NCBI RefSeq assembly: GCF_010882175.1
Contig: NZ_WKLH01000002.1
Location: forward strand, 930,001 to 994,000
Origin: Mangrovibacterium lignilyticum
GTDB taxonomy: Bacteria > Bacteroidota > Bacteroidia > Bacteroidales > Prolixibacteraceae
Direction: 5' to 3'
DNA: 64,000 nt
Part shown: positions 1,200-49,903 of the stretch, one piece after another
Layout of the letters: the number at the start of each line of letters is the position of its first letter
Numbering within the stretch: the first letter of the stretch is position 1
The notes under the pieces: model-generated
Told to the model about the DNA's origin: nothing
What the model saw: the letters and a program-made list of their open reading frames with translations, nothing else
Database searches by the model: none
Translations under genes and position numbers: made by a program

Positions 1200-3074
1200 T
1201 TAATCGACCGCCACTAAAATCGAGTCGGAAGAATTCAAATTAATATAGAAATGATCGGCCGGTGCACCTTGCATAAAATGGTCCAAAATTCGACCGATGC
1301 CTCTTAATTGCTCCACGCGTTCCGCTGCTTCTGTGTTCGGCGTGGCTTGTTCAACAAGGGCAAAGAAGCGCTGATACTGCCCCAATCTCTCTTTTCCGAT
1401 ATCCGGGAAAGCCAATTTATCGGCACTCCTCAAACGGTAAAGATCATAGATCAGGTCCTGTCCCGTCCAATCGCCAGCATTAAAGTCAGTCTCAGTCTCA
1501 GTCTCAGTCTCAGCACCTCGGCTATTTTGAACAAGGTAATCCAACATTTCCCGTCCGGTCGAGCCAACAATAAACTTCCGAAGATCAGTGGGCCAGTCAG
1601 CCTTCAGAAAACGCAAACGCACCAATTCCTTTAAATGCCAGGCTGTGTAATCGTGATAGTTGGCTGTCGAAAGAATCTCGCGGTTCCATATTGAAGGACT
1701 TTTTAGACTATCCAGACAGGCATATTCGCGTTCATACAAAGGAAATAATTCTTTAAAACGAGGCACTGAATCCAACTGAATCGTTTCGATCTCAATCAGA
1801 CTTGAGTTGTGAATCGTCAGTAATTTATAGGCCGGTATGTAAGCTGCTAATGAAGGAACCTGAACATTCACCAGAAATTTCCCGTCATCGTAAGTTCGAA
1901 TTCCCGTATCGTTGATGTGCATGTGCCCGCCAAAGTGCAGTTTGATGCCTGCTTCGGCAAACGTTCGTGCCACCTCTTCGGCCGGTACCCGATGAAGCTC
2001 CATGCTTTGGTCGCCCAGAAGTTGCCGAATCCCGGGGCTGGCATCGTCGTAAAACTCCACCATCGGATAATGACTGAAAGCGATCAAGGTTTTCCCGCGC
2101 TTTTCAGCTTCTCTGCAAACCTTTTTCACCCAATCCAGCAAATGCATTTTGTGGGTCAACACCTGGTTGTAGCCAATGCTGGCTCCCTCGTAATTTTCCG
2201 GGTCAGCGCCATCGGCAGCTGCTTTCTCTTTGGGGAGATAAACATTGCCGTCGATAGCCAGCAACCAAAGCCCCTGAACGGGCTCTTCCAAATAACTGAC
2301 ATCCGGCAATAATGAATTGGTGGGCGGAATCGGGTACTGCCGTATTTTCATTTGAGCTTCCTGTTTCGCCTTCTCGAACGAATAATCGTCATAATTATAG
2401 GTTGAAAAAGGCGTCTCCCAATAGACATCACCTGGTTTGGGAAAGAAACCGAAATCACCCATTTCACTCATGATTCCGGCATAGCCCATTTTGTGGATAT
2501 CATTCGTTATCACGACCGGATTCTCCTTCGGATCTTTAGGCGTATACATTCCGGATTTGCTCATCAACACCTGGTTCTTTCCGTCTGCCCCCAGGTAATC
2601 TGTTTTTCCGGCATCCGTCGCAAAAGGCCGGACAGGATCGTGATTACCGGTGATGACGACAAACTGCAGACCGTATTTCGATTCATAGTCGTGAAGGATT
2701 TCCTGCATTCCCCGAACATTCAAGGGCTGTCCGTCGTCGCTAAAATCGCCGGGTAGCACGACATATTTCACACCCCGGCGAACCACATCGTCCAAGGCCG
2801 CCAAAAAGGCAAAATAGTTCTCGTTGAACAGCCGGGTTGAATGCAACTGGGCTTCCATCGTTCGCCCCAACACGTAGCGACCATTACCGGGATTCAACAC
2901 GCCCTTGAAATCATTGTCGGAAAGTTTCCCGTACAAATTTTGCAAATGCACGTCCGACAGGAATGCTATTTTGATATCCTTCGGCTGCTCAGTCTGCTTG
3001 CTTGTACAAGCGCTTATTAAAAGAAACAGCATGACAAGTGCCATGCTGTGTTGGATTGAAAATATTCTTTTCAC
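1200..3074 (-). CDS. Calcineurin-like metallophosphoesterase lipoprotein
   Basis: Predicted surface or periplasmic lipoprotein (signal peptide ending LLISAC, Cys23) with a dinuclear-metal phosphoesterase domain. Visible metal and catalytic motifs in order are SDVH (about 41-43), PGDFSDDG, GNHDP, FSHYP and GGHMH. The remaining 200 residues at the C-terminus have no domain I recognise and include a run of Glu-Thr pairs (about residues 521-529) encoded by a hexanucleotide repeat. Translation starts with GTG at 3074, only 8 nt after the GH115 stop, so the two genes are surely co-transcribed. A phosphatase inside a mannosidase-rich PUL suggests a phosphorylated glycan, but the substrate (phosphosugar, phospholipid or nucleotide) cannot be read from sequence. 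Confidence 0.85.
   Translation of the reverse strand: MKRIFSIQHSMALVMLFLLISACTSKQTEQPKDIKIAFLSDVHLQNLYGKLSDNDFKGVLNPGNGRYVLGRTMEAQLHSTRLFNENYFAFLAALDDVVRRGVKYVVLPGDFSDDGQPLNVRGMQEILHDYESKYGLQFVVITGNHDPVRPFATDAGKTDYLGADGKNQVLMSKSGMYTPKDPKENPVVITNDIHKMGYAGIMSEMGDFGFFPKPGDVYWETPFSTYNYDDYSFEKAKQEAQMKIRQYPIPPTNSLLPDVSYLEEPVQGLWLLAIDGNVYLPKEKAAADGADPENYEGASIGYNQVLTHKMHLLDWVKKVCREAEKRGKTLIAFSHYPMVEFYDDASPGIRQLLGDQSMELHRVPAEEVARTFAEAGIKLHFGGHMHINDTGIRTYDDGKFLVNVQVPSLAAYIPAYKLLTIHNSSLIEIETIQLDSVPRFKELFPLYEREYACLDSLKSPSIWNREILSTANYHDYTAWHLKELVRLRFLKADWPTDLRKFIVGSTGREMLDYLVQNSRGAETETETETDFNAGDWTGQDLIYDLYRLRSADKLAFPDIGKERLGQYQRFFALVEQATPNTEAAERVEQLRGIGRILDHFMQGAPADHFYINLNSSDSILVAVD
1485..1513. repeat. 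Hexanucleotide microsatellite inside the phosphoesterase gene
   Basis: Four tandem copies of AGTCTC plus partial flanking copies. On the coding strand this is GAGACT repeated, giving Glu-Thr pairs. The unit is a multiple of three, so slippage would change protein length by two residues without breaking the frame. Confidence 0.9.
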
Positions 3075-3082
3075 TGTTTCAC

Positions 3083-6073
3083 TTATTTTTTCCTTGTTTC
3101 AGGTGGAAAGGCATAGCTGCTTTTCCATCCACCCAAATCAATTAAAATTTGATCAATCATCACGCCCGGATCAACCATCCATACTTTCAGTTTGTGCTTA
3201 CCGGGCTCAGCTACCATTTGCTTTGCTGACTTCACTGCTGCATTTTTCAGCACATTTTGCTTCCACTCGTTGCTGCGGCCAACGGTTTTAAAATCGATGA
3301 TAACCGGTTCAGCATCGTCAACAGCCAGAGCACAGCGAACACTCGCTCCCTCGTAAAACGGATGAGTAGGTACGGCCTGTACCTGAACATCAGCTTCACC
3401 GAAGTTGAAGGTATAAAAATCGTATTCCAACATGGGGCTTTGTTCTTTTATCGCAGTAGGCTCAACAACGGGTTTTGCATTATAAGGCAGAGCAACGACC
3501 ACATTTCCGCTGTATCCTATTCCTCCAAATTGTTTCCAGTCTGCTTCTTTTCCTGCCTTTTTCGATGAGGTGTTTTCGGCGTTAATTGACACGTAGCCAT
3601 TCCCCTCTACAAAGCCCTCATAATTTTCCAAATCTTTGAATTTAGGGTTGAAAGTTGATACATTAACCGTAACAGTTGTATCATCCGTGCTAAACTCAAT
3701 AGTTCCATACACCTTATATGCAGGAGGAATCAATTGATAATCTTGTCCCAGTGGCGCTTCTATTGTATTCTCACCCTGTGGAAGCTGATCCCAATCGATA
3801 CTTACCCATAAGCGCTGTTCTTGCTCTCCCGCAGCAGTTGTCAGTTTCCCATGATCGGCTGACAAGCGAATCCAGGGAGCTTTAGGCTCAGCTTTCCAAT
3901 CCACTTCCCTTCCTCCTTTCAGGAACACATCAACAAAAGCAGAATCTTTCAGGTAAGCATTCAACAGAGGAAGTACATCGGAATAAGCATTGGGGATACT
4001 TTTATTCGCCTCTATATCGTATCCTTCCAGAACTAATCCCCAATCAGCTTCACCATCCTCTGCAGGCAACGCATACGAAGGTTGCGAGAAAACAGGCAAG
4101 TTACGCGGTGCCATGCTCATCATGTTTTTCCACTTCCCGTTTACCAATTTATTGTTGAAGTTTTTAGTTTCTGTTTTTATCTGTTCGTAAGCCTCTTTTG
4201 ACAACTTGGCAAATTCTTGAGCGCTGGCTCTTCCCTGGCTGGCAACCAGTTCATTTTTATAATGGTACAACCATTTCTGATTCATCAAAGAAGCACCTGT
4301 AACCGGATAGTAAACCAACTCAAAAAAGGCATCTTTCTGTCCTGCAGGAATGTCATCATCCAATACCTTCACTTCTTGCGCCAGCCTTTCCCAGGCTTGC
4401 AGATATTTTGTTAGCTCATCTCCGTAACGAATTTGCGTCAATTCAGTTTCCTGTGGTTTTATTGTTGGCTCAGTTTGACTCCAGGCCATAAACTCGGGAC
4501 GACGCATAAAACACAGGTGATAATAGTCCATCATGAGCTTTGTCAATTGCGGAGCCTTTTCCTTGCCAAACAGAGAACTCAACCAGCCATTTAAATGTTT
4601 CTCAACGCCCTTTGTCCCGGTAAAAGCGTCAATATCCCAAGCCATATCCATGAACATCTCGATATTGTATTCGAGTGGTTTGATGTCGCCGCAGTTCAGA
4701 ATCCACATATCGTGACAATTGAACTGGTAAGCCTTATACATTTCTTCCCACATCAGCATCGGGTTTGTTGAACTGAGCCAAAGGTAATCGTGCGGACGTC
4801 CCCAATACGAAGCATGGTAATAAATACCGCCACCACCAGGGCGCTTTTGCTCTTCTGGCGTACTTAGCTGGCGAATGTATCCGTAATTATCGTCGGTCCA
4901 CATCAGGGTCACATCCTCGGGAACTTCCAATCCATTTTGATAGTAGTCCAGCACCTCTTTATAAGGAATGAAAGCTTGTGGAAGTGTTTCCGGATCTTTA
5001 CCGGTTTCCTTTGCCATGATTTCACGCTGATCAGCAATTACTTTTTCCAGCAATTTCATCTGATCCTCTTTGGTCAAATCTTTCGCATTCATTGGTGAAT
5101 CATGTTCACCACGCATACCAATGGTGTAAATGCTTTCAAAGTTTGAAGTTGCTTTTGTCCGTTTTTCAAACAAATCACGAATTGTTTCAGCATTGTTATC
5201 ATAGCGCCACTCGCCCATGGTGTTGTGATTCCACTCGGCATTGATATTGCACAACATCGGCTCGCAGTGCGAAGTTCCCACCACAATGGCATAATCATCG
5301 GCTGTTTGAGCATTTCCATCGATGGTATAAAAAGCTTTGGTACAACCGTGCATAGCCGGCCAAATGGTATTGGCGCGAAGACGCAGCATCAACTCGAAGA
5401 TCTTTGCATAGGTTTTAGGACCAATGTCGCCTGTTTCCGGCTCAAAGGTTTTTGCCGCCCAAGGTTGAAGTCCCCAATCTTCGTCATTCAAAAACAAACC
5501 ACGATACTTGACCGAAGGCGAGCTGTAGGTTTTACTTTCAATATCGAGGGTAATCTCCTTACGCTTTTGTGGCAACACATCAGCCCACCATTCCCAGGTC
5601 GAAACACCCATCATGCGCGACAGCTCCAAAATACCGTAGGTCGTTGCCCGTCGGTCGCTCCCAATGATGACCAAGGCTTTCTTTACGCCGGGAAAAGGCT
5701 TCTCAATCACCTGCATCGACCAACTTTCCCATTTACCGTCAACGGCAGAAACATCAATTTTCTTTTCAGCAATCAACTGATCGATGATATCATTTTTACC
5801 CATTGTTCCGGCAATGATTAACTCGTCTGCCGACTCGGAAAGTTCATTTATTATCTTGGGGTGTTTCTCTGTAATGTTTTCCACGTCGCGGGCAAAAAGA
5901 TTAGCAGCAATCGAGACCACTTTAGCGTCGTCTTCAGAAATTAAAATAGCTGAGGCCGCTTTCTTTTCTGAAATCGTAAAGGAATTAATTTCTCCGGCCT
6001 TTTGCGCATAAACCTGCATCTGAGGAAGGAGACAGATCGCACAGAAAATCGAAATAATGATCTTTTTTTTCAT
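3083..6073 (-). CDS. GH115 alpha-glucuronidase
   Basis: Large secreted enzyme (996 aa) matching family GH115, whose members remove alpha-1,2-linked glucuronic acid or 4-O-methyl-glucuronic acid from xylan or arabinogalactan side chains. Seen: signal peptide MKKKIIISIFCAICLLPQ...YAQ, an N-terminal domain with GSDRRATTYGILELSR, the RGLFLNDEDWGLQPWA segment, a barrel core with LRANTIWPAMH and GTSHCEPMLCN, MWTDDNYGYIR, and a long C-terminal beta-rich region (residues about 620-996) as in BoAgu115A-type proteins. The reading frame extends to a TTG at 6151, but the ATG at 6073 directly precedes the signal peptide and is preferred. It follows the acetyltransferase gene by 102 nt and abuts the phosphoesterase gene. 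Confidence 0.92.
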   Translation of the reverse strand: MKKKIIISIFCAICLLPQMQVYAQKAGEINSFTISEKKAASAILISEDDAKVVSIAANLFARDVENITEKHPKIINELSESADELIIAGTMGKNDIIDQLIAEKKIDVSAVDGKWESWSMQVIEKPFPGVKKALVIIGSDRRATTYGILELSRMMGVSTWEWWADVLPQKRKEITLDIESKTYSSPSVKYRGLFLNDEDWGLQPWAAKTFEPETGDIGPKTYAKIFELMLRLRANTIWPAMHGCTKAFYTIDGNAQTADDYAIVVGTSHCEPMLCNINAEWNHNTMGEWRYDNNAETIRDLFEKRTKATSNFESIYTIGMRGEHDSPMNAKDLTKEDQMKLLEKVIADQREIMAKETGKDPETLPQAFIPYKEVLDYYQNGLEVPEDVTLMWTDDNYGYIRQLSTPEEQKRPGGGGIYYHASYWGRPHDYLWLSSTNPMLMWEEMYKAYQFNCHDMWILNCGDIKPLEYNIEMFMDMAWDIDAFTGTKGVEKHLNGWLSSLFGKEKAPQLTKLMMDYYHLCFMRRPEFMAWSQTEPTIKPQETELTQIRYGDELTKYLQAWERLAQEVKVLDDDIPAGQKDAFFELVYYPVTGASLMNQKWLYHYKNELVASQGRASAQEFAKLSKEAYEQIKTETKNFNNKLVNGKWKNMMSMAPRNLPVFSQPSYALPAEDGEADWGLVLEGYDIEANKSIPNAYSDVLPLLNAYLKDSAFVDVFLKGGREVDWKAEPKAPWIRLSADHGKLTTAAGEQEQRLWVSIDWDQLPQGENTIEAPLGQDYQLIPPAYKVYGTIEFSTDDTTVTVNVSTFNPKFKDLENYEGFVEGNGYVSINAENTSSKKAGKEADWKQFGGIGYSGNVVVALPYNAKPVVEPTAIKEQSPMLEYDFYTFNFGEADVQVQAVPTHPFYEGASVRCALAVDDAEPVIIDFKTVGRSNEWKQNVLKNAAVKSAKQMVAEPGKHKLKVWMVDPGVMIDQILIDLGGWKSSYAFPPETRKK

Positions 6074-6175
6074 AGTGAATAGTTTCTTGGTTATTTGTAT
6101 GTAGTAGCTAAAGTCTGAAATTACACAAAGTTTAAGACGTTCTATAATCAATAATACATGGAGTTTGGAATTCTG

Positions 6176-7318
6176 TCAAATTTTAATGTAAATCTTTCGC
6201 CGATGTAGCCACCATCCCAGTGCCCAACACAGCAAAACATAGGCAATGGCGGTCATTAATGAGCCAAAAGCTCCGGGAAAGATTTGTTGAAAGACCTGCT
6301 CACTTACCCACTCAAAAGCGTCCTGGCTCGAATTAACGGGGATCATCCGTAATACAACATAAAAGAGTTCGGAGAAGAGATAAATAAACAAGGGATTCTT
6401 ACCGAATACATCGCAAAAATTAACGCCTACTTTTAGGTTTTTCAGTTCAATCAAATAAATCAGCACTGCCATAATCGAAAGATCCAATCCAACAGTATAA
6501 AGCACAAATGGACTTGTCCACAGTTTCTTGGAAATCGGAAAAATCAGATCCCACCAGAGTGCAGTTGAGGTCATCAAAAAACCAACCAGCAATAGCATGG
6601 CAATTCCTTCGAACGACTTTCCTTTCTTTTGAATAAAAACACCGGCAAGGTATCCCCATAATACATTGACAATAGCCGGCAAGGTACTCAGGATACCTTC
6701 TGGATCGAAAGGAATAGCATCCTTTTTATAAATATGGCCGTAGCCCAGAATTGACAAGTCGAATTTGGTTGCAGCATTGCTGGCCATTTCCAATTGCGCA
6801 CCCGGCTCGCCAAAGGCATATAAAATTCCCCAGTAGGCCAATAAGATGACCACTGAAATGATGATCGCTACCCGCTCTGATAAGTAGAGAACGATTACTG
6901 ACGCGAAGAAATAACACAATGCGATCCGCTGCAGAACTCCCATGATACGGGTTTCAGCAATTGGCTTGAGAAGAAAACTTCCGTCGTCACCAATTTTGAA
7001 GAAAGGAAACCAATACATCAGGTAACCGAGCAGGAAGATAATCACGGTGCGTTTAATAATTTTGGTCCAAACCTGCCCCGGAGAAGCGGTTTTCATCTTT
7101 TTCATCGAGAAACTCATGGCATTCCCAACTGCAAACAAGAAAGAAGGGAAAACCAAGTCGGCCAGTGTAAAGCCGAACCAATGCGCATGGATGAAATAGT
7201 CGTATATCCTGGCACCAGTTCCGGGGGTATTTACCACGATCATCAAAGCAATGGTTAATCCCCGGAATACATCGAGCGACAGAAAGCGTTCCGGCTTTTG
7301 TTTGATTATTTGTTCCAT
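6176..7318 (-). CDS. HGSNAT/NagX-type transmembrane acetyltransferase (DUF5009 family)
   Basis: Polytopic inner-membrane protein of 380 aa with about ten hydrophobic segments. The N-terminus carries the hallmarks of the heparan-alpha-glucosaminide N-acetyltransferase family: LDVFRG, then a His-Ala-x-Trp motif (His44) and GFTLADLVFPSFLFAVG. Recalled from the human enzyme, the equivalent histidine (His269) carries the acetyl group from cytosolic acetyl-CoA across the membrane. The predicted role is therefore N-acetylation of glucosamine residues on the periplasmic side. The gene starts 2 nt after the GH89 stop, which implies tight coupling with the enzyme that would cleave the acetylated product. 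Transport of another acyl group or sugar cannot be excluded. Confidence 0.85.
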   Translation of the reverse strand: MEQIIKQKPERFLSLDVFRGLTIALMIVVNTPGTGARIYDYFIHAHWFGFTLADLVFPSFLFAVGNAMSFSMKKMKTASPGQVWTKIIKRTVIIFLLGYLMYWFPFFKIGDDGSFLLKPIAETRIMGVLQRIALCYFFASVIVLYLSERVAIIISVVILLAYWGILYAFGEPGAQLEMASNAATKFDLSILGYGHIYKKDAIPFDPEGILSTLPAIVNVLWGYLAGVFIQKKGKSFEGIAMLLLVGFLMTSTALWWDLIFPISKKLWTSPFVLYTVGLDLSIMAVLIYLIELKNLKVGVNFCDVFGKNPLFIYLFSELFYVVLRMIPVNSSQDAFEWVSEQVFQQIFPGAFGSLMTAIAYVLLCWALGWWLHRRKIYIKI

Positions 7319-7320
7319 TA

Positions 7321-9555
7321 TTAGTAGTTGTAATTGATGACAGGTAAAGTTTTCGTCAGCGGCGCTATCCGGTCGCGGTATTTGTGATAAAGTTCTTCGG
7401 TTACTCCCGTTGGGCTACCACTCGCTTGAATCGGAAATTCTTTCTGCGATGTCACCCAATTCCATTCCCATTGTTTCATCTGATCGTCGAAAGCCTCCTG
7501 ATCAAAACTTCCCCAGTTGTTACTTACCTCCGAAAAGAAATGTTCCCAGCGCGGTCTGTAGAAATCACTCAGCAAGCCGCTCCACTGGCGATTACTGTAT
7601 TCGTGCAACCGATTATCAGCTCCTCCCCAAAGGGTGATCAAATCGCGGGCATTCTGTTCATACAATGCTTTCTCATCCGGCGTTGTTCCCCAACTGCGGG
7701 CATCAGCAATCCAGGGTCCCAGAAGGAAATCCTTGCGCGTTGCCAACAGACGATCCAAGTCTGCAATCAACTCCAGAAACTCGCGGCTGTACTGCGCAAA
7801 TTTATCTTTGTCGTTGCTTTTATAAGCCATGGCAATTTGTTGCTGAACAGGTAAGGCATAATTTGCCAGTATTTGCCGGGTTAGATCGACCAAATCATAC
7901 TGAAAACCGTCTGATGCACCGAACTCCGGGATAACCTCAACAAATGAGTCCCAGGCCGGCAATAAATCTTCCGGAGCATAATTCAGTTTTGTGCGTGCCC
8001 AACGACGATATCCCTCGAAGGTTGGCCGGGAAACAATAATAGACTCCGCACCGTCACGAATAACCTGCCCGTTGTAAACGGTTTGGACCAAAATGTCCCA
8101 GGCCTTTTCCATATCGGAACTATTGTTACCATAGCGATTGCGAATGTATTTCTTTAACCACTCCGTCAAGTCGATCGGTGTATCGCGCCAGGTATTGTCG
8201 GTCATTAACTCGTAAAGCACCGGCGTTTGCTCAATGGCTTCCATGGTCAGGCCGATTCCTTTTAGTTGTCCCGATGTCGAATCATTCAGTGCCTCTGCCG
8301 GATGCTCAGCCACATTCTCAATGCGCCCAAATAAACTGATATTTCCCCCGAAATTATGCAGCATGCACCAGATCCATTCTTTTCCATAGAACGCCTCGGT
8401 ACGTTTCCAAACTGGCTCAATCTCGGCTGCCAAATCCAGAATAATCATCCGGTCGTTGGGAACGGCGCCCAACAGACCCTGAATTTGCGGCGCCTTCCAG
8501 AAATCGCGGTGACTATAGAACAACCACCCTTGCATCACCCAAACTGCTTCGGGGTCGGCCGACTTCATGCCTTCAAAAACTTTGGCACTCAATTCAGAAA
8601 GGTATTGCGGATCGTCTGATGGCGGCTCATTCTCGTTGAAGGTATCAGCAGAATACAGATGGTCGGTTCCGTAAATTTCCCGCTGAACTTCCAGAAACTT
8701 CATACCAATCTCGGCAAACAGCGGATCATCGGCATCCAGGATGTAAGTATCCTCAAAATCGTTCCCCCAGTTGGTTTGTTTCAACCGGGCATTGGGGAAG
8801 TACTTCTTAAATGAAGCGGGAACATGTCCGGTAAAGGCCGGCAAAACAGTTTTCATACCTAGCTCGCGCTCGCGCTGCACAATCTTTTTTTGCAAATCGC
8901 GGTGGCTTTCCTTCCAGCTCTTAGGCAGAGGACCGCCCCAGCCATCGAGGTTGCCCATCCAAAACCAACCGAAATAGGCCGGCCCACTGAAAAACGGATC
9001 CAGATCTTCGTCGGTAAAACCGTACGACCGGTAAACCTCATCCCAAACAGACTCTTCGCCGGTAATGGCCAGCGGCATATTGATGCCGTGCAACGCCATC
9101 CAGTCAATTTCCTTTTCCCAACGATCCCAATCCCACCAGCTCATGGTGTAATTGAAGGTGCAATAATTCAAATAATAGCGATACTCGTACGGACTGTCCT
9201 TGCGCACTTTCTCCGGAATCACCGGTAACTCTTCCGGTAAATTCAGATTCGTTCCGTTCCAGGTAATCTGACAATGGCAATATTCTGTCAGGTAATAATA
9301 CAGGGCAGAAGCGACAGAAACGCCGTTATTTCCGCGCAGAACAATTTTATCAGCCTTCGATTCCAGCTCGAACCAATCGACTGTGTCTGATAGAATAATT
9401 TCTACTACAAAATGGTCGGCCCGTTCCGGAATAATTCGCTGGATCAAGTCTACTTCGGGACTGATTATTTGAGTCTCCTGTTTCTGCGTTTTACATCCAT
9501 AAAATGAAAAGGCAAATATTACGAACAGGAAAGTCAATCTTATTCTTGCACTCAT
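7321..9555 (-). CDS. GH89 alpha-N-acetylglucosaminidase (NAGLU family) lipoprotein
   Basis: 744-aa lipoprotein (SFYGC, Cys21) closely resembling the lysosomal NAGLU family, which removes terminal alpha-linked GlcNAc. Seen: the N-terminal small alpha/beta domain, then the TIM-barrel region with YYLNYCTFNYTMSWWDWDRW, WMALHGINMPLA, GHVPASFKKYFP, the ADTFNENEPP motif with catalytic Glu308, and a second conserved Glu439 in GLTMEAIEQTPVLYELM (aligned by eye to Glu316 and Glu446 of human NAGLU), followed by the all-helical C-terminal domain ending near KYRDR. It sits 24 nt after a GH43 stop and 2 nt before the HGSNAT-like gene. Confidence 0.95.
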   Translation of the reverse strand: MSARIRLTFLFVIFAFSFYGCKTQKQETQIISPEVDLIQRIIPERADHFVVEIILSDTVDWFELESKADKIVLRGNNGVSVASALYYYLTEYCHCQITWNGTNLNLPEELPVIPEKVRKDSPYEYRYYLNYCTFNYTMSWWDWDRWEKEIDWMALHGINMPLAITGEESVWDEVYRSYGFTDEDLDPFFSGPAYFGWFWMGNLDGWGGPLPKSWKESHRDLQKKIVQRERELGMKTVLPAFTGHVPASFKKYFPNARLKQTNWGNDFEDTYILDADDPLFAEIGMKFLEVQREIYGTDHLYSADTFNENEPPSDDPQYLSELSAKVFEGMKSADPEAVWVMQGWLFYSHRDFWKAPQIQGLLGAVPNDRMIILDLAAEIEPVWKRTEAFYGKEWIWCMLHNFGGNISLFGRIENVAEHPAEALNDSTSGQLKGIGLTMEAIEQTPVLYELMTDNTWRDTPIDLTEWLKKYIRNRYGNNSSDMEKAWDILVQTVYNGQVIRDGAESIIVSRPTFEGYRRWARTKLNYAPEDLLPAWDSFVEVIPEFGASDGFQYDLVDLTRQILANYALPVQQQIAMAYKSNDKDKFAQYSREFLELIADLDRLLATRKDFLLGPWIADARSWGTTPDEKALYEQNARDLITLWGGADNRLHEYSNRQWSGLLSDFYRPRWEHFFSEVSNNWGSFDQEAFDDQMKQWEWNWVTSQKEFPIQASGSPTGVTEELYHKYRDRIAPLTKTLPVINYNY

Positions 9556-9579
9556 TCTTCGAAATTTTTAGTGTTAAAA

Positions 9580-10566
9580 TCAAAAGTTTACAATGCCGGT
9601 GGGCTTAACTTTCAAGATATTGTGATTTGCATCAAAGTTTAGGCTATCGACACATAACTGCCGTAACACATACGCTGAGTCTTGCGGAAAAATGCGGTGA
9701 TACAAAATGTAATCCTGTCCTCCTTCGTTGAATACCGAATGGTGCCCCGGCCCATAAGTTGTACTGTCCGCAGAAGTTTCCAATATTGGACTATTAATGC
9801 CTGTTTCAAAAGGTCCGAGAGGTGAATTCCCAACCGCATAACCCATTTTGTAAGTCGCATCAATCGCCTTTCCTGACGAATACATCAGATAGTATTTTCC
9901 GAAACGCTTAATCATGTACGGCGCTTCAAAGTAGTCAGCCGGAGTGACATCAACCGGTTCTCCCTGAAAGGAAATCATATCCGGATTAAGCTTAACCGCC
10001 ATACAGACGCCATTGATCCAATGAAATCCGGATCCCCAGTACAGGTATGCCTGACCATCGTCGTCGATGAAGCAATCAGCATCAATCGTATGCACATCGG
10101 GAAAGTCACTGGAAGCAACCAGTGGTGAATTGTCCTCCTTTGCATTTTGCCAGGGACCTAAGGGCAAATCGCTCACACCAGCCCATATCTCACTTCCAAC
10201 CGATACATACATGTAATATTTTCCATTGGCAGCTTTCCGGACAGAAGGCGCCCAAACCATCGAATTATTGGAGCCATCACTTGTACAAGCCTTTTTAGTT
10301 GGCCAGTTTAAATGATGGCGATCAAAGGTCAAAAAATCTTTGGTTGAAAACACAGCCAGCTCTTCTCCTCCCCAAGGATCAATTGTGGCATAGATATAAA
10401 AAGTATCACCGTCCTTGACGATACAGGGATCGGCGAAATAGCCATCAATAATTGGATTAGCAATCAACTTTGCGCTTTGTATATTTTCCTTCTTTGCCAA
10501 ATTTATACAAGCAGTTAGCAGAATTGGCGTCAACAGAAATAAAACACTTGTTCTTACATTTTTCAT
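9580..10566 (-). CDS. GH43 glycoside hydrolase lipoprotein
   Basis: Compact 328-aa single-domain GH43 with a lipoprotein signal (LLTAC). Seen: the first-blade motif GYFADPCIVKDGDTFYIYA with the base Asp, VWAPSVR, the transition-state-modulating Asp in TIDADCFIDDDGQAYLYWG, acid Glu in FEAPYMIKR and the YGPGHHS motif. The family covers alpha-L-arabinofuranosidases, beta-xylosidases and galactan exo-enzymes; subfamily and substrate cannot be fixed by eye. It lies 44 nt after the GH92 stop and 24 nt before GH89, within a run of co-directed enzymes. Confidence 0.88.
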   Translation of the reverse strand: MKNVRTSVLFLLTPILLTACINLAKKENIQSAKLIANPIIDGYFADPCIVKDGDTFYIYATIDPWGGEELAVFSTKDFLTFDRHHLNWPTKKACTSDGSNNSMVWAPSVRKAANGKYYMYVSVGSEIWAGVSDLPLGPWQNAKEDNSPLVASSDFPDVHTIDADCFIDDDGQAYLYWGSGFHWINGVCMAVKLNPDMISFQGEPVDVTPADYFEAPYMIKRFGKYYLMYSSGKAIDATYKMGYAVGNSPLGPFETGINSPILETSADSTTYGPGHHSVFNEGGQDYILYHRIFPQDSAYVLRQLCVDSLNFDANHNILKVKPTGIVNF

Positions 10567-10610: not shown

Positions 10611-12902
10611 CTACAGTTCCTGATCGGATTTTGAAGGAGGAAGGAGCTCCGCTCCCCACTTTGAAGGCGCGGGCCCCATCTCCAGAATTAGTGTTCCTCC
10701 CATTACAATATTTTGATGTTCAAGCCAGGCTTTCGGGAAGTCTTTTCCGTTAAGCTCGGCCGATTGTATATACTTATTTTTTGGTGATCGATTTTTCGCC
10801 AAAATGACAAAGTCTTTTCCGTTTTCCTGATGAATAACCGTTTTTTCGAAATAAGGAGCATTGATCAGGTAATACGACTGGCCGGCATTCGGATACAATC
10901 CGATGAGGTGAAAAGCCAACCAGGATGACATTGCTCCGGAGTCGTCGTTCCCTGGAATGCCGCTGTGACTGCTGTTGTAGTTCTCATCGATTATTTGGTG
11001 AATTCGCTCACTACTCAACTCAGGGCGACCGATCCAATGATACAGGTTTGGACTCAGGAACGAAGGCTCGTTAGCCACATTGTAAAGCCCCTTATCATAC
11101 AAGGTATCGAGGCGTTTTCTGAAGGCTTTTTTCCCTCCTGATTTTTCAACCAGCGTCGCCACATCGTGCGGAACGGAAAGCGAATATTCCCATGAGCTCG
11201 CTTCGTAAAAGAAACCGCACCACCAACAAACGCAAATTGGCCAATCCTGCGCAACCGGTGTGTATGGAATGTAAGTGATCCGGCCGTTACTGGCGTCACA
11301 CTGAATACTGTCGACCCAATTGCCATGCGCATCTTTAGGCATAATGAAGCCGTTCGATCCATGATCGTCAATATCCCGCCACAAGTTTTGCCAGTTATCC
11401 GATTGCTTGATAAACCGCCAGTATTCGCCTTTTCGCTTAATGCCCCTGGCAACCGTTGCCAAGCAATAATCGTCGTAAGCATATTCCAGCGTGCGATTGC
11501 CTGCCCTGACAAAATCAGTCGAAACATAGCCCAACCGGTTATAATCCGTTAGTCCACCGCGACCTTCTTTTTCCTCGTTGCCACCGGGAGGAACTGTGGC
11601 ATCTTTCAGCATCGCTTCAAGCGCCAGTTTATAATTAATTCCGTCCAACCCTTTCACAAAGGCATCGGCGATAACCACTTCTGCATTCGATCCGCCCTGC
11701 GTACGACCGTTACAATTTCCACTGCGGGCCTCAGGCAGATAGCCATCGCGCTTGTATATCTGAAGCATGGCATTTACAATAGCAATTTGCCGCGATGGTG
11801 TCAACAAAGTAATCAGCGGACTCGACGAACGATAAGTATCCCAAATGGCGTAAAAATCATCGTAATACGGACTATTATTTTCCCACTTTGGATTTTCCCC
11901 GGTGCGATCAACCGGCATCAGCATGGTATGGTACAAACCGGTGTAAAACATGGTTTTGAGCTCAGAAGAAGCATCTTGATCAACCTCAACCCGTTGGAGA
12001 ATTCTCTCCCATTTCTCCTGAGTTTCGGTCAATGCCTGTTGAAAATTCCAATGCGGAATTTCTGCATTTATATTTTCATGCGCCTTCAAACTACTGACGA
12101 AAGAAATACCAATTTTTAGCTGAAGATCATCACTCGAAGAATCGAAATAAAGCAGGGCACCGGTTTTTCCGCCGTCATCAATTCTGACTTTCCGGCCAGC
12201 TTCTATTTGATCATTTTTCCAAGTTGAAAACTGCTTGAAGGGTCGATCAAATACCGCTGTAAAATAAACGGTGTAGGCACTTCCATTATTCCATCCACCG
12301 CGAATCCGGGTGTAACCGCGCACTTCGGTTTCTGAGATAATTTCAATTTCGGAACCAACAAACTGCTGTGCCTCACGCGCATCGGGGTTCGGAATATTCG
12401 GCTCGCCCAAAAACTTACCCAAGTCAATTTTCACAGCCTGCTTATTTCCCGGTTGATACGAGAAGTGATAAAAGGCAGCCCGATCCGAAGTGGTAATCTC
12501 GGTTTGAATCCCCCAATTTTGTAGCATTACACTGTAATAACCCAACTTAACTTGTTCTTCTCCTTTTACCGATTCCTGATCAATGGCCTCCAGATCACCG
12601 GAGAAAGGCATCACAGATACATTCCCGTATTTTGGGCCGCCTCCGGTGCCACTTACATGCACTTGACTAAAGCCGTAGATTGGCTTCGCCGGATCAGATG
12701 AATAGCCACTGTTCGACGATACATCATTATCCGGTCCAGGTTTAACCATGCCATAAGGGCAGGATGGACCAATAAACACATTGCCCAGTCCTTCGGAACC
12801 GATCAACGGATCAACAAACTGGTGCAATTGCGCCTGAGCAACGAATGCAAAACACAGTGTGAAAATTAAAAGTCCGAGCTTGATTTGATTCTGCTTCATC
12901 AT
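10611..12902 (-). CDS. GH92 alpha-mannosidase (second copy)
   Basis: 763-aa secreted exo-alpha-mannosidase of the calcium-dependent family GH92. Seen: signal peptide ending FVAQAQ, the N-terminal beta-sandwich opening QFVDPLIGSEGLGNVFIGPSCPYG, a helical linker, and the (alpha/alpha)6 barrel with WDTYRS, the acid-carrying segment FYEASSWEYS, and GIPGNDDSGAMSSW, whose Asp residues act as base in characterised members. Linkage specificity (alpha-1,2, 1,3, 1,4 or 1,6) is not readable by eye. It starts 9 nt after the stop of the other GH92. Confidence 0.95.
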   Translation of the reverse strand: MMKQNQIKLGLLIFTLCFAFVAQAQLHQFVDPLIGSEGLGNVFIGPSCPYGMVKPGPDNDVSSNSGYSSDPAKPIYGFSQVHVSGTGGGPKYGNVSVMPFSGDLEAIDQESVKGEEQVKLGYYSVMLQNWGIQTEITTSDRAAFYHFSYQPGNKQAVKIDLGKFLGEPNIPNPDAREAQQFVGSEIEIISETEVRGYTRIRGGWNNGSAYTVYFTAVFDRPFKQFSTWKNDQIEAGRKVRIDDGGKTGALLYFDSSSDDLQLKIGISFVSSLKAHENINAEIPHWNFQQALTETQEKWERILQRVEVDQDASSELKTMFYTGLYHTMLMPVDRTGENPKWENNSPYYDDFYAIWDTYRSSSPLITLLTPSRQIAIVNAMLQIYKRDGYLPEARSGNCNGRTQGGSNAEVVIADAFVKGLDGINYKLALEAMLKDATVPPGGNEEKEGRGGLTDYNRLGYVSTDFVRAGNRTLEYAYDDYCLATVARGIKRKGEYWRFIKQSDNWQNLWRDIDDHGSNGFIMPKDAHGNWVDSIQCDASNGRITYIPYTPVAQDWPICVCWWCGFFYEASSWEYSLSVPHDVATLVEKSGGKKAFRKRLDTLYDKGLYNVANEPSFLSPNLYHWIGRPELSSERIHQIIDENYNSSHSGIPGNDDSGAMSSWLAFHLIGLYPNAGQSYYLINAPYFEKTVIHQENGKDFVILAKNRSPKNKYIQSAELNGKDFPKAWLEHQNIVMGGTLILEMGPAPSKWGAELLPPSKSDQEL

Positions 12903-12911
12903 TTTAGTCGT

Positions 12912-15236
12912 TTAGTCGTTCGACAGTGAATAAGGTTGATCATCAGGCGCTACGCCCCATGATTTATTGGACTGGTCGCCCATCTCAAAATCGATTGTTC
13001 CTCCTTTGACCAAATCGAAATGATTCAGAAAGTTTTGTGTTATTTCCTCGCCGTTCAGCTTCAGTCGCTGAATGAATTTTTTACCGGACGAGGCTCCGTC
13101 GGCATTTATAACCAACTGCTTGCCACTTTCCAACTGAATCGTGATTTTATCGAAATGCGGCCCGGAAATAACATACTCGGGCACAGACGGACTAACCGGA
13201 TAAAATCCGAGCGCAGCAAACACATACCAGGCTGACATTTGGCCCGCATCATCATTACCGCTTAAACCACCGGCATCGGCACCATATTCTGTTTTCATGA
13301 TCTCAGAGACCAACTGCTGTGTTTTCCACGGCTGGCCTGAATAGTTGTACAAAAACGGAATCTGGTGTCCCGGTTCATTGCCGTGCCAATACTGGCCGGA
13401 AGCATGAAAATGATCCAAATTCTTATTAAAACCCTCCTGTCCGCCCATCAAATGCATCAAGCCTTTAATATCCTGCGGAACGTACCAAGTGTACTGATAA
13501 GGTGTTCCTTCGGTAATGTAAGGCATGCGGATAAACTTGTTAAACTCAGTGGTAAAACTGCCGTCGACATAGCGTCCGCGAACACACGAGTCGGCGGCAC
13601 TGTATACATTTTGATAGTTTAAAGCACGTTTTGTTAGCTGATCAGCCCTAACTGTATCACCCCTTTTTTCAGCAATCCGGCTCAAGGCAAAATCATCGAA
13701 GGCATATTCCAAGGTCCTCGAAACCTGTTCCTTTTTATGAAAGGATTCCTGTACGCTGTCCTCTAAAGGAATGTAACCGTATTCCAGATACGACTCCAGC
13801 GCCCGGCGACCTTTCCCTTCCTGATATTCAGGAAAAGTCTCCGGAGATTGAAAGGCATTTTTGACTAGCAATTCGTATTGAGCGTCACTCAAATCAATGA
13901 CATCCTTTGAATAGGCATCCGCAACTGCAGCAATCACGTGGTCACCAACCATAGCCGAGGTGTAGCTGTTCCAGCAGGGAAAAATAGGTAACCAACCGCC
14001 TTGCTGAGCCTTGTCCAATAAGCTGTACATCATATCAGCATTGGTTTTCGGCACCAACAAATTGAATAACGGATGCGAAGCCCGGTAGGTATCCCACATC
14101 GAGAAATCAACAAAGTAATCCCGATCTCCGGAATTCATCTGTTCATTTCCTCCTGCAAAACTTGGATATGAACCGTCGATATCGTTAAATGTCCGGGGCT
14201 GCAAAAAGCTGTGATAAAGTGCTGTATAAAATTTGATTTTATCTTCCTCATTCGTTCCTTCAACCTGAACTTTACCAAGCAGTTGCTTCCAAGTCTCTTC
14301 CAGTTGTCCCTTTGCCTGATCGAAATCCAAATCTGCGGTTTCGGCATCCAGATTTTTGCGCGCTTCCTCAATGCTCGTAAACGAAGTTCCTATTTCAACA
14401 TAAACGGGCTCATTTTCCTTCAGCGAGAACGAAGCCCAGCCGCCGAGCTTGCTTTGATTGGCCAGTTCGGTACTCATCGCATTGATGATGCTGTCCTGAA
14501 AAACACCATAGCTTTCAAAATCGTGGCTGAACCGCGCGACAAAGTAACCGCTGAAGCCAGCTGGTTCGCCCCATCCCTGATAAATCCGGTGAACCGGATT
14601 GTAACCGACTATCTCATTCGTTTCGGGAAGTATATGAATGTATCCTTGTGCCTCGTCGCTATTCGGGTTAATTACAATATGCGACTCGCCTCCTTTTTCG
14701 AAAGTGAATTTGAAAAGACCACAACGTTTAGTGGCAGTTATCTCCGCCTGAATCGCGTAGTCGTCCAAGTGAACGCCGTAATAAAAAGGGGTTGAAATTT
14801 CGTTGTCATGGGAAAACGATGAACCACGTTCCTCAGGCAGCCATTTCAGTTGCCCTGCAACCGGCATGATAGTCATGCTTCCGTAATCCTGTACACAGGA
14901 GCCGCTCAGCCAGTGACTTCCCCGGAATCCCTGGATAACCGAGTCGGTATAATAGTAAGGAGCCACACACTTGGTTTCTGTATCTTTGGTTTGAGCTGTC
15001 CAATTGGTCATACCGAAAGGAACAGTGACATAGGGAACCACCTGCGAGTTGTTTTCACTTCCCTCTCCGTGCTTTATTGCACTGATCGTTGTAGACGGCG
15101 CCGTACCGATTAGCGGATTCACATAATCGACAACATTTTTTTGTTGAACGGCCTCCTGACAACCGGACAGACACAAACTGAAAATCAGTAATTGTAATAA
15201 TCTCATTCGTTCAATTTTTTTAAATACAAACCTCAT
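12912..15236 (-). CDS. GH92 alpha-mannosidase lipoprotein (first copy)
   Basis: 774-aa GH92 with a lipoprotein signal (CLSGC). Seen: VVDYVNPLIGTAPSTT in the beta-sandwich, RGSHWLSGSCVQDYGSM, WDTYRASHPLF, the acid segment YITEGTPYQYTWYVP and the GLSGNDDAGQMSAWY motif. It is clearly different from its tandem neighbour: the N-terminal active-site loops and the acid segment do not match, so the two probably cleave different mannoside linkages. The ATG at 15236 lies 1 nt after the preceding stop, suggesting translational coupling; an ATG at 15206 gives a more compact signal peptide and is the alternative start. Confidence 0.95.
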   Translation of the reverse strand: MRFVFKKIERMRLLQLLIFSLCLSGCQEAVQQKNVVDYVNPLIGTAPSTTISAIKHGEGSENNSQVVPYVTVPFGMTNWTAQTKDTETKCVAPYYYTDSVIQGFRGSHWLSGSCVQDYGSMTIMPVAGQLKWLPEERGSSFSHDNEISTPFYYGVHLDDYAIQAEITATKRCGLFKFTFEKGGESHIVINPNSDEAQGYIHILPETNEIVGYNPVHRIYQGWGEPAGFSGYFVARFSHDFESYGVFQDSIINAMSTELANQSKLGGWASFSLKENEPVYVEIGTSFTSIEEARKNLDAETADLDFDQAKGQLEETWKQLLGKVQVEGTNEEDKIKFYTALYHSFLQPRTFNDIDGSYPSFAGGNEQMNSGDRDYFVDFSMWDTYRASHPLFNLLVPKTNADMMYSLLDKAQQGGWLPIFPCWNSYTSAMVGDHVIAAVADAYSKDVIDLSDAQYELLVKNAFQSPETFPEYQEGKGRRALESYLEYGYIPLEDSVQESFHKKEQVSRTLEYAFDDFALSRIAEKRGDTVRADQLTKRALNYQNVYSAADSCVRGRYVDGSFTTEFNKFIRMPYITEGTPYQYTWYVPQDIKGLMHLMGGQEGFNKNLDHFHASGQYWHGNEPGHQIPFLYNYSGQPWKTQQLVSEIMKTEYGADAGGLSGNDDAGQMSAWYVFAALGFYPVSPSVPEYVISGPHFDKITIQLESGKQLVINADGASSGKKFIQRLKLNGEEITQNFLNHFDLVKGGTIDFEMGDQSNKSWGVAPDDQPYSLSND

Positions 15237-15237: not shown

Positions 15238-17064
15238 TCACTTCAACGTTATCACATGTAAAAATGGTGTTCTTCCGGTTAAAAACAGGTGCATTCCTTT
15301 TCCTTTGATCGATCCAAAATGGGTCGAATATAGTTCGCCGTCAATCCGGCCTACGTTTTGATGTTCCCTGATTCCGGGTCCAACCTGAATTTTATCGCTT
15401 CCAAATTGATAGGTCGCATAACCTTCTTTCAAAAAGAAATCCGATTCATTTTCCGATTTCTGCACAGCCGATAATTGCCCTCCGGATCTGAAACAAAGTT
15501 CCAAAGTCACGTCTACTCCTTTGGGACCATCTACGTTAATCACCAGTTCAAATTCGCCCTTATTTTCCCGTATCGTTACGTCTGTTTCCATCGCCTGGAC
15601 ATCACTGACGGACCTGTCCTTAAAATCCATTTTGCTCCAAAAACGACCGTCCGGCGATTCCGTTAATTTATAATCTCCCTCTGGATTTTGTTTGTCCGCA
15701 GGAAGAGGTTGGTAGTAATAAGCTTCTTTCCGTTCATGTAGCATGCAGCTGTTTTGCTCTTGCCGCAGCCCCTCACTTCTGAAATACCCGGTATTGAAAA
15801 ATGAAGTAGATAAACGGGCATATTCCAGAATTGCCTCCCCTTTTCGAAAAGTGAAGAAAGTTGGATTGGTCGAACGACCAGATGAAATTTGCAATGGAAA
15901 ATCATTTCCCCCAAATACTGTTGCCGTCATTCGGTCGCGCTTCATACGAACCATATTGGTAGCAGACAAGTCGACGTTGAAATCTTCAGGTAGAGCATCT
16001 GCCCGCGAAAGTTTTTTCTGCAACAATGGAACATCAAGGAAATGAAGCAAAGCACCAGACAAGACATGCTCGTCAAACGTGTCCATATCTTCAATTTTAC
16101 GGGCTATTGCAGCAAAAAGAGAATCATTCAACCGAACAGCTATAAAGCGATAACACCAATAATAGTTAGTTGCCTGAATAATCATGTTCTGATCTTGTCT
16201 TCTGGAATCTAATGAAACCAAGTCACCATTGTTCTCCATCAGGAAAAAGGTGGTCTCTAGATTTTTTCGCACCGGCTTCAGTAAATCCGGCCGCCCCAGA
16301 ATTGTTGCCATTGTAATTAGTGCATGGTCTACAACCTTGGAATAAATACGGCTTCGTTCCGGATACTGACCGTCCTCGTCGATATAAATACCTTCCGACA
16401 ACCACTCCTCAATACGCTCCTTGTATCGGTTGTCTCCATAAATTTGATAGAGATGAGCCAACGCGGAAGAGGTCACCCAACGATGATTAGGCGTATGGAT
16501 TCCACCGGTTATTAAAGCCTCGCCAGCACTTAGTAAAAAGTCATCCAACCGCTTTTTCAATAGCATCGACTCTTCTGAATTTCGGTTTGCCAACACTTTT
16601 GCTGCCGGCCCCAGATTATCAATCAAAAAAGCAGTATCAGGCGGTGATTGTTTGTTACCTCCTGCATCAACGGTTCCATTCGCGCGTTGAGCATCAAGCA
16701 GGTACCCCATGATCTTCATGAGCCGTTGAAATACGGCTTCAGAATTGAAATAATCAGCGCCGATGGTACAAAACGACGCTGTTAATATTCCAAACTGAAC
16801 GCTCAGGCTTCGGGGATTGTCCTTTTGAATGCCTTTATTCAGCAGATTGCTTACCGTTTGGTCGTTTGCCTGAATCAACCGCTGATAGAGTTCGTGGTCG
16901 AATTCAGTGTGACTACCAACAAGAGTGTCTCCGACACCCTCTTTTTTAGGAGCCTCTGAATTTGAGCTTCCCCTTGCTGAAGCAAAGAAAAAACAAGAAA
17001 AAACAAGAAGCACAATGAATAAACTTCGAATACTTCGTTTCAAATAAACGCGATATAAATACAT
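15238..17064 (-). CDS. Secreted alpha-toroid/beta-sandwich protein, putative polysaccharide lyase-like enzyme
   Basis: 608-aa protein I cannot assign to a CAZy family. It begins with a hydrophobic signal segment (residues 12-31). Residues about 60-350 are helix-rich with spaced aromatic and Arg residues typical of an (alpha/alpha) toroid, including PNHRWVTSSALAHLYQIYGD and DGQYPERSRIYSKVVDHAL; the Asn-His, Tyr and His residues are arranged as in heparinase-like or other toroid lyases. Residues about 370-608 are beta-rich. It is the first gene after SusD and runs into the GH92 gene with 1 nt between stop and start, so it is almost certainly part of the degradation apparatus. A lyase acting on the uronic acid that GH115 also targets would fit but is inference. 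Confidence 0.45.
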   Translation of the reverse strand: MYLYRVYLKRSIRSLFIVLLVFSCFFFASARGSSNSEAPKKEGVGDTLVGSHTEFDHELYQRLIQANDQTVSNLLNKGIQKDNPRSLSVQFGILTASFCTIGADYFNSEAVFQRLMKIMGYLLDAQRANGTVDAGGNKQSPPDTAFLIDNLGPAAKVLANRNSEESMLLKKRLDDFLLSAGEALITGGIHTPNHRWVTSSALAHLYQIYGDNRYKERIEEWLSEGIYIDEDGQYPERSRIYSKVVDHALITMATILGRPDLLKPVRKNLETTFFLMENNGDLVSLDSRRQDQNMIIQATNYYWCYRFIAVRLNDSLFAAIARKIEDMDTFDEHVLSGALLHFLDVPLLQKKLSRADALPEDFNVDLSATNMVRMKRDRMTATVFGGNDFPLQISSGRSTNPTFFTFRKGEAILEYARLSTSFFNTGYFRSEGLRQEQNSCMLHERKEAYYYQPLPADKQNPEGDYKLTESPDGRFWSKMDFKDRSVSDVQAMETDVTIRENKGEFELVINVDGPKGVDVTLELCFRSGGQLSAVQKSENESDFFLKEGYATYQFGSDKIQVGPGIREHQNVGRIDGELYSTHFGSIKGKGMHLFLTGRTPFLHVITLK

Positions 17065-21800: not shown

Positions 21801-22268
21801 AGTGGCTCCGGGAACAGGGTTACCATCTTCATCTAAAACAGTACCTTTTACTTCTGTGGGTTGTTGAAAGAAATAATTCTTTGCCTCCCCGTTTTCAGTA
21901 TCAGGGCTCAAAATAATCTGACGATCTTTAATGTCATACTTCACATTAACCCCGCGAAAAACTTCGTCCAATACTTCTGTGATATTACTTTCATTCAGGT
22001 TCACATCAACTCGTCTATCAACATCGATGAACTTATTACTGTACAAGAAAAAGTAATCACTGCTTTTTTCAATATGCATCAACACATCTTTCACTGTAGA
22101 GTTGCGCATATTGACCGAAATTCGGGTCGTCTGAGAATAAGAATCAATTGCCAACACCTGTCCTGCGAGGAGTAGCAAGCATACAATAGTTAGTTTCATA
22201 CGTCTCATAAATTTAGCGACCATGGGATAATATAACCCAGGGCCAAACCTTTTACGAATTTTTTCCAT
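18867..22268 (-). CDS. SusC-family TonB-dependent transporter with STN domain (PUL1)
   Basis: 1133-aa outer-membrane oligosaccharide importer. Domains in order: long signal region ending near SYSQ, STN signalling domain (about 48-110), a carboxypeptidase-regulatory-like beta domain (PGATVVLKGTTKGTVTDFDG), the plug with VVAIGYG and the A-Y-G-S-R-G-S-S-G-V-I-L motif, and a 22-strand barrel ending in a terminal Phe (SLNF). The STN domain means the transporter signals ligand binding to the FecR/ECF pair encoded immediately upstream. The frame opens at a TTG (22295), but the ATG at 22268 (MEKIRKRF) matches the usual start of STN-bearing SusC proteins. Confidence 0.96.
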   Translation of the reverse strand: MEKIRKRFGPGLYYPMVAKFMRRMKLTIVCLLLLAGQVLAIDSYSQTTRISVNMRNSTVKDVLMHIEKSSDYFFLYSNKFIDVDRRVDVNLNESNITEVLDEVFRGVNVKYDIKDRQIILSPDTENGEAKNYFFQQPTEVKGTVLDEDGNPVPGATVVLKGTTKGTVTDFDGKFTISVSGENPMLVISFVGMEPTEVAYTGQGTLDVTLKSSTIGLDEVVAIGYGSVKKADLTGSVSSVDHAKLEKANKVDAISALEGQTAGVFIQRTDNKPGSGGFNIRIRGASTINSNQTADQGGYSPGQNPLFIVDGIFVDDISFLNPADIERMDVLKDASATAIYGSRGSSGVILIETKKGKEGSLKVTYNGYVGTKQAYHLPPMMDANGYVQIVKDAVVGNQYAAGNLDYSIDDVVMSDVFDAEELENIANGVNTDWVDLILVNGFQTNHTVNLNGGTEKTLYSAGLGYTKDNGTIEGEDFKRYNIRGSLSSDLADWFNFSISNYTTIGIQNTGSWEAFRSAYRLKPIGRPYNDDGSLRYYALAKETQITNPLFEADNITKQTKYLQWLGDIAIKLTPAKGLTFTSKFSPNIKYTRYGEYRGLYSKAVSGNVSNRRAQVNNFNYFSYSWDNIFNYKFTKDVHSLDVTAVVSRFSEQSEGYYTQVRNFTTDDYLFHNLGAGLSINDVSSDYSKQTLESYTGRLSYSLMDRYLLTATGRYDGSSILSKENKWAFFPSVAFAWKMMEENFMKSQDVLSNAKLRLSYGQTGNNGQGGGLGPLASQSLLGSSATNLGDASVSTAYVTGLANKDLTWEKTTEINLGIDYGFLNNRVFGSIDVYNRKTTGIIFYTPLPTVTGYSGTYDNVGESTNKGIEIGLNTVNIDRADFKWTTNFNFATNKNKIDKLYGDLDEIIFNVSGTNLIHKVGESIGSVYDYEFDGIWQLDEVTEAAKYGQTPGQVRVKDLNNDGAITPDGDRKVIGQVTPKWTGGISSNMEYKNFDFSFSLIMSYGNKMLSNFHSSASFPWDGDPSRMFNAYDVNYWTPTNQINSWYQPGNGGSYQNAVKYKDISYTKVGYITVGYKLPSSILNRMHVDGLRIYTTVQNPFIFTSYDGWDPESAGRNTWGAAFMSRTYMAGISLNF

Positions 22269-22328
22269 AGTTTTGTAATGGTTTGAATTAAACAATTTAA
22301 ATTCTCAAGTTGTATTTTTTTCAACCTT

Positions 22329-46338: not shown

Positions 46339-46388
46339 TCTAAAACTCAACAATCGTATCTACTTCAAATAAAGTCAAGATCAAAAAT

Positions 46389-49882: not shown

Positions 49883-49903
49883 ATTATCTGGTTATTTATG
49901 GTC

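Follow-up and report, generated by a model that had tools for sequence, protein, structure and literature searches.

Why does the genome of Mangrovibacterium lignilyticum carry, side by side, relatives of HGSNAT and NAGLU, two human lysosomal enzymes of heparan sulfate degradation? The genes lie on the minus strand of a 64,000-nucleotide (nt) stretch of contig NZ_WKLH01000002.1 (positions 930,001 to 994,000), here referred to as the window, from whose first letter all coordinates are counted. A gene of glycoside hydrolase (GH) family 89 (7321 to 9555; 744 amino acids), a predicted alpha-N-acetylglucosaminidase, is transcribed first and is followed, after a gap of 2 nt (7319-7320), by the gene of a predicted HGSNAT/NagX-like transmembrane N-acetyltransferase (AT; 6176 to 7318; 380 amino acids). 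The original prediction, made from the letters of the window, took this pair for a two-step route to a glycan with nonacetylated alpha-linked glucosamine (GlcN) ends. The 2-nt spacing and the HGSNAT signature motifs that it named were recovered from the open reading frame (ORF) sequences and coordinates, while the adjacency that it called fusion-like is that of two neighboring, unfused genes. On balance, we lean toward a reading in which the AT acetylates bound alpha-GlcN and GH89 then cleaves it off, on head groups resembling those of glycosyl inositol phosphorylceramides (GIPCs). The protein families, the recurrence of the pair, the conserved histidine, the fold, and the gene company described below were all computed here.

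Both family assignments of the original prediction hold. The GH89 ORF matched the Pfam NAGLU domain with 496.9 bits (cut-off 25.5), as well as NAGLU_C (289.3 bits) and NAGLU_N (94.9 bits), and its closest solved relative in a PDB sequence search was 4xwh (E value of 1.8e-169, 568 bits), which is human NAGLU (PMC8225759); the Clostridium perfringens GH89 (CpGH89) scored 452 bits. The predicted catalytic glutamates are E308 and E439, which correspond in the alignment to chain positions 293 and 423 of 4xwh (counted by hand) and are invariant among 20 aligned GH89 sequences. We take these chain positions to be E316 and E446 of human NAGLU. The ORF is thus a member of family GH89 with predicted alpha-N-acetylglucosaminidase activity. 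By eye, lipoprotein-like N termini are present in GH89 as well as in the GH43 protein, one GH92 protein, and the metallophosphoesterase of the same gene block. Because its N terminus resembles a lipoprotein signal, GH89 would be placed on the periplasmic or outer side of the membrane, where the AT would deliver the acetyl group.

The AT carries the motifs LDVFRG (residues 15 to 20), H44-A45-H46-W47, and LADLVFP (residues 52 to 58), and its only solved sequence relative at an E value of ≤0.001 was human HGSNAT (best E value of 1.2e-20). A Foldseek search with the predicted structure (pLDDT 87.3) returned HGSNAT at ranks 1 to 15 (TMq 0.75 to 0.80) and GWT1 at ranks 16 and 17, and only these matches fell below an E value of 0.001; matches 8jkv and 8jl4 were recognized as HGSNAT through the PDB sequence search. 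H44 aligns with HGSNAT H297 (position counted by hand), the residue that PMC9007349 identifies as the catalytic histidine. This residue is kept in 80 of 80 AT sequences of a first set and in 110 of 110 of a wider set that includes the window, whether beside GH89 or away from it, and D16 and R19 of the DxxR motif are kept in all 105 of the 110 rows that cover them. Curated models were less accommodating: the DUF5009 label of the original prediction stayed under the Pfam cut-off (19.2 versus 25 bits), Pfam HGSNAT_cat (PF07786) gave no match at an E value of ≤0.001, and the best model, NCBIfam NagX (NF046061), scored 160.2 bits, under its equivalog cut-off of 480. By these cut-offs the AT falls outside both NagX and DUF5009. 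Furthermore, the N-terminal luminal domain of HGSNAT is not present in the 380-residue AT, and the alignment begins only at HGSNAT chain residue 264. Judged by fold, histidine, and DxxR motif, the AT belongs to the HGSNAT family (TmAT superfamily), with acetyl-CoA-dependent transfer to alpha-glucosamine as its predicted activity. According to the consulted part of PMC12423673, experiments have confirmed a function for none of the DUF5009 proteins. For NagX, a relative of the AT, free glucosamine is the proposed substrate (PMC9007349).

A lack of adjacency in other genomes had been named beforehand as a possible refuter of the pairing, but the pair recurs. An alignment scan of named genomes found 584 GH89 relatives, of which the best 80 were taken, so the set is biased to close GH89s; the AT was present in the fetched flank of 33 of these 80 loci and was the direct neighbor in 24. 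Among these 24 pairs, with start codons and gaps taken from a simple gene caller, the spacing ranged from -73 to +103 nt and the AT lay downstream in 16, upstream in 7, and on the opposite strand in 1. All 33 linked loci carry two separate ORFs and a GH89-AT fusion was therefore set aside, although no search aimed at fusions was made. The linked pair occurs in taxa that include Draconibacterium, Flavobacterium, Wenyingzhuangia, Leeuwenhoekiella, Chitinophaga, Mucilaginibacter, Pedobacter, Dyadobacter, and an Opitutaceae metagenome-assembled genome (MAG). In the other 47 of the 80 loci, some of them on short contigs (e.g., L080, 3 kb), the fetched flank contained no AT; GH89 thus needs no AT in general, and the AT appears to go with only some GH89 substrates. 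These unaccompanied GH89 genes, like the inositol and phosphate context, were missing from the original prediction.

An even sample of 395 genomes of the phylum gave the same picture. GH89 was found in 26 of them (30 matches), and the AT lay within 500 nt of 7, within 4 kb of 8, and within 35 kb of 16 of the 30 matches, as against 0, 0, and 5 of 87 matches to GH20, another N-acetylglucosamine (GlcNAc)-releasing family, in the same genomes (distances taken from matched stretches rather than gene ends). The GH20 control comprises 87 of 102 rows, and none of the 15 rows left out shares a contig with a listed AT at a distance of 35 kb or less; AT places were merged to 55, with the five weakest rows of one AT search left out, one of which is separated by about 1.6 kb from genome G238's second GH89. 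On the strength of the recurrence (24 of 80 direct neighbors; 8 of 30 versus 0 of 87 within 4 kb) we rejected chance adjacency, and the GH20 counts led us to reject the AT as a general partner of GlcNAc-releasing enzymes. With a Pedobacter AT as the query, the four best matches adjoin GH89, while the next eight, all of one genus, lie 21 to 30 kb from it. An AT tree of 110 rows, built by a quick method, shows 7 changes of linkage, or 6 without those eight cases; an earlier tree of 80 rows, which lacked unlinked relatives of the Pedobacter-type AT, had shown 4. The GH89 tree (54 rows) shows 8 changes, 6 of them forced by starred branches. Collectively, these changes indicate that the pairing was formed or broken up several times.

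The substrate is suggested by the genes that accompany the pair. When the 33 AT-linked loci were compared with the 47 others, in a comparison that leans to the linked loci because the query proteins were chosen from them, myo-inositol oxygenase (MIOX) was found in 13 of 33 versus 0 of 47 loci (11 of 26 versus 0 of 27 with full flanks only), GH92 in 19 versus 1, metallophosphoesterases of two types in 11 versus 1, and the phosphatidylinositol-specific phospholipase C domain PI-PLC-C1 in 3 versus 0. MIOX, PI-PLC, or a GDPD-phosphatase was present in 17 of the 33 linked loci (13, 3, and 1, respectively), and a separate SSS symporter gene was present in 10. The identity of MIOX was verified with Pfam for five genes from different genera. 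The only count free of the leaning in query choice is a whole-genome MIOX search of the even sample, in which 28 of 395 genomes had a match above the cut-off: 14 of the 26 with GH89 versus 14 of the 369 others. In 11 of the 26 GH89 genomes, MIOX lies within 6 kb of the AT and 26 kb of GH89.

Individual loci illustrate this company. A single run in genome G202 contains GH89, NagB-PIG-L, SusC, SusD, two GH92 genes, a 188-amino-acid gene, a homologue of the window's 608-amino-acid protein, DUF4861, PI-PLC, a metallophosphoesterase of the window type, a 1343-amino-acid gene, MIOX, GH2, the AT, a sodium symporter, and GH28-like genes. The order in genome G014 (L246 and L256; G014:C13) is arabinofuranosidase, GH92, iolC and iolD (above the cut-off), an iolA-type dehydrogenase (split in two by a stretch border), iolE (below the cut-off), iolG (above the cut-off), GH92, GH28-like, symporter, AT, and GH89; its iol genes sit between two GH92 genes, upstream of AT-GH89. 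A GDPD-alkaline phosphatase fusion directly follows the AT in L087, and NagB-PIG-L fusions occur in some loci. The window's own gene block is common to the Flavobacterium and Wenyingzhuangia loci L066, L067, and L083, which add PI-PLC between the AT and GH115. MIOX and the iol genes belong to two distinct routes of inositol use, and gene order varies between loci; both points favor a shared substrate over a single inherited cluster.

These observations suggest that AT-GH89 loci help degrade the sugar head groups of membrane lipids that contain inositol, e.g., those of plants. The AT would load H44 with an acetyl group from cytosolic acetyl-CoA and carry this group across the inner membrane; the acceptor would be the unsubstituted amine of a terminal, alpha-linked glucosamine on a periplasmic oligosaccharide, and GH89, as a lipoprotein, would then take off the resulting alpha-GlcNAc. 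We infer this order of the two steps, and with it the GIPC substrate and the assignment of each hydrolase to a residue. GIPC head groups are proposed because the inositol genes plus GH92, GH43, and GH115, all three of which are also in the window, fit them. The nonacetylated alpha-GlcN glycan of the original prediction finds a plausible native class in the GIPC PSL2, and the GlcN form of GIPC is viewed as arising by deacetylation (PMC9113257). Across the various AT-GH89 loci, candidate families for the individual GIPC residues would be GH43/arabinofuranosidase, GH2/GH35/GH27, GH92, AT plus GH89, GH115, phospholipase C (PLC)/phosphatase, and MIOX/iol. Transmembrane acetylation of alpha-GlcN and cleavage by GH89 would precede the removal of alpha-linked glucuronic acid (GlcA), phosphate, and inositol. 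The broader proposal, that a bacterial version of the heparan sulfate logic was assembled repeatedly in Bacteroidota (and in one Verrucomicrobiota MAG) for glycosyl inositol phosphoryl lipids, is a tentative one that we hold almost evenly balanced. Fungal GIPCs and glycosylphosphatidylinositol (GPI) anchors, which carry unacetylated alpha-GlcN on inositol, are alternative substrates, especially for loci without GH115.

Several observations weigh against the inositol lipid proposal, as does the leaning in query choice. In the fetched flank, 16 of the 33 linked loci have no MIOX, PI-PLC, GDPD-phosphatase, or metallophosphoesterase of either type, and Draconibacterium L064, whose AT is nearest to that of the window in the 110-row tree, is among them. 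GH115 does not track the AT (3 of 33 versus 3 of 47 loci) and was rejected as a constant partner. Eight of the 14 genomes with both GH89 and MIOX belong to one genus, and the GH89 tree offers 0 to 1 informative independent pairs for the AT versus the inositol genes, too few for a tree-aware test of that link; the Fisher values for the even-sample counts, which treat loci as independent, therefore overstate independence. The window GH89 has a Trp in the place of the Gal-directed Trp of CpGH89, which human NAGLU lacks (alignments read by hand). Finally, neither MIOX nor iolG above the cut-off was found in the window's genome, and its PI-PLC-C1 gene is in two pieces with internal stops. The broken gene lies at G000:C9:1018857-1019836, about 25 kb past the window end, and has intact relatives in other sampled genomes. 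The inositol step of the window organism is consequently missing or different, and, as its own genome is without those genes, the inositol part of our proposal rests for this organism on the block common with L066, L067, and L083, plus the phosphoesterase.

These gaps feed an alternative in which the acetylate-then-cleave order holds but the window substrate is another glycan, either one similar to glucuronoxylan or a microbial polysaccharide containing alpha-GlcN, alpha-mannose, and alpha-GlcA. The linked loci are varied, nearly half of them are without the inositol and phosphate gene types sought, and xylan degradation also draws on families GH115 and GH43. However, the window shares its block with loci that carry PI-PLC between the AT and GH115, and its metallophosphoesterase is of the same type as theirs; we regard this alternative as unlikely, if worth keeping in view. 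A different division of labor would be salvage of the NagX type, with the AT acetylating free periplasmic glucosamine for uptake as GlcNAc and GH89 cutting a natively acetylated glycan, both as parts of one amino-sugar route. NagX is the best curated model for the AT, fitness data from five bacteria link NagX to growth on glucosamine (PMC9007349), and the NagB-PIG-L fusions would suit such a route. Nevertheless, GH89 would free GlcNAc rather than GlcN, the AT does not sit beside GH20 (0 of 87 within 4 kb), and its score is one third of the NagX cut-off, all of which makes this salvage route improbable in our view.

The AT might also be a MurT-like importer of the amino sugar freed by GH89, given that TfMurT, a putative N-acetylmuramic acid transporter, is distantly related to NagX (PMC9007349; PMC7670621) and that the second AT of the window's genome adjoins GH3/beta-lactamase-type proteins. 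An importer would nonetheless be hard to reconcile with a fold whose significant matches are HGSNAT and GWT1, transporters appearing among the 50 top matches listed only from an E value of 0.013 and with a TM score of about 0.2. The full conservation of H44 and of D16/R19, together with the separate SSS symporter in 10 of the 33 linked loci, likewise speaks against import, which we consider very improbable.

Acetylation of bound alpha-GlcN followed by GH89 cleavage, the order that we favor, has its nearest counterpart in human HGSNAT and NAGLU, which are homologous to the window pair and share the acetyl-carrying histidine and the fold; if GIPC is the bacterial substrate, the GlcN(Ac)-alpha-1,4-GlcA linkage would be the same as well. 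The bacterial pair differs in its setting, a polysaccharide utilization locus (PUL), and in the AT being without the N-terminal luminal part (380 versus 663 amino acids). No sulfatase was found among the PUL genes scanned, and alpha-GlcA is expected in the bacterial case, whereas heparan sulfate has beta-GlcA or iduronic acid. NagX belongs to the same family as the AT and is likewise proposed to modify an amino sugar in the periplasm at the expense of cytosolic acetyl-CoA, but it concerns free glucosamine and chitin operons, and the consulted part of its description mentions no GH89 partner (PMC9007349). Bt3590 of Bacteroides thetaiotaomicron, also a bacterial GH89, cleaves GlcNAc-alpha-1,4-GlcA of heparosan oligosaccharides; unlike for the window GH89, no acetyltransferase partner is mentioned in the consulted part of PMC8225759. 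Microbial attack on plant GIPC is exemplified by a Botrytis GIPC phospholipase C that frees inositol phosphate glycans; this enzyme is fungal and of the sphingomyelinase type, and the consulted part of PMC11496612 describes no dismantling of the glycan.

The bacterial PUL setting claimed by the original prediction is confirmed by SusC/SusD and by ECF sigma/FecR genes. The operon-like block, entirely on the minus strand, begins with an extracytoplasmic function (ECF) sigma factor (TIGR02985; 23563 to 24258) and a FecR-like anti-sigma factor (22376 to 23428), both assigned by NCBIfam, followed by a SusC-like TonB-dependent transporter (18867 to 22295) and a SusD-like lipoprotein (17213 to 18856), both assigned by Pfam. 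A 608-amino-acid protein (15238 to 17064) comes next, then two GH92 genes (12912 to 15236 and 10611 to 12902; Pfam and NCBIfam), GH43 (9580 to 10566; Pfam), GH89, and the AT. The block ends with a member of the GH115 alpha-glucuronidase family (3083 to 6151, listed from a TTG, with an ATG start at 6073; Pfam, best solved relative BtGH115A) and a calcineurin-like metallophosphoesterase (1200 to 3074; Pfam), which has homologues in Flavobacteriaceae GH89-AT loci. The 608-amino-acid protein had no Pfam, NCBIfam, or PDB sequence match, and its structure model, built from two sequences, was too poor to read (pLDDT 42.5); its homologues occur in Flavobacterium-type loci carrying MIOX. Elsewhere in the window, GH39 and GH43 lie side by side at 44656-47894, possibly as a second carbohydrate locus with the large ORFs at 48365-53263.

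ATs also occur in other surroundings. The second HGSNAT-like AT of the window's genome (L187, G000:C10:49500-69400; 9254-10363) lies in a SusC/SusD locus and adjoins a GH3 plus beta-lactamase-domain protein and another beta-lactamase-domain protein; its role is perhaps in amino-sugar or peptidoglycan metabolism. Ten neighbor proteins, from six of 40 stretches around ATs (among which L171 has GH89 and L193 yielded no AT), revealed mixed contexts: GH3 plus beta-lactamase domain, beta-lactamase domain, SusD, SusC, GDPD-alkaline phosphatase, amidase-like, metallophosphoesterase with beta-propeller, sodium symporter, peptidase M16, and FGE-sulfatase domain. Tandem AT genes were seen in L174 (8576-10855) and L247 (14530-16891). 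In L181 (G182:C20; 2759-10438), SusC- and SusD-size genes, a GDPD/alkaline-phosphatase fusion, and an AT stand in a row, with no GH89 in the stretch.

GIPCs are major lipids of the plant plasma membrane and make up as much as 40% of total sphingolipids (PMC8099651). In the PMC literature, we found no paper on a bacterial GIPC utilization locus by title or abstract, nor any on GH89 together with HGSNAT or on the HGSNAT enzyme name in a Bacteroid and PUL context; a paper on inositol lipids of Bacteroidetes concerns their synthesis (PMC9246714). The inositol-gene company of AT-linked GH89 loci is new here. If our interpretation is true, these loci would constitute a bacterial utilization system for the GIPC head groups of plants (or of fungi or algae) and would give DUF5009/HGSNAT-like proteins a native role in glycan metabolism. 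The pair offers a testable function for DUF5009-type proteins and a bacterial system for the study of HGSNAT, the human enzyme that is deficient in mucopolysaccharidosis IIIC.

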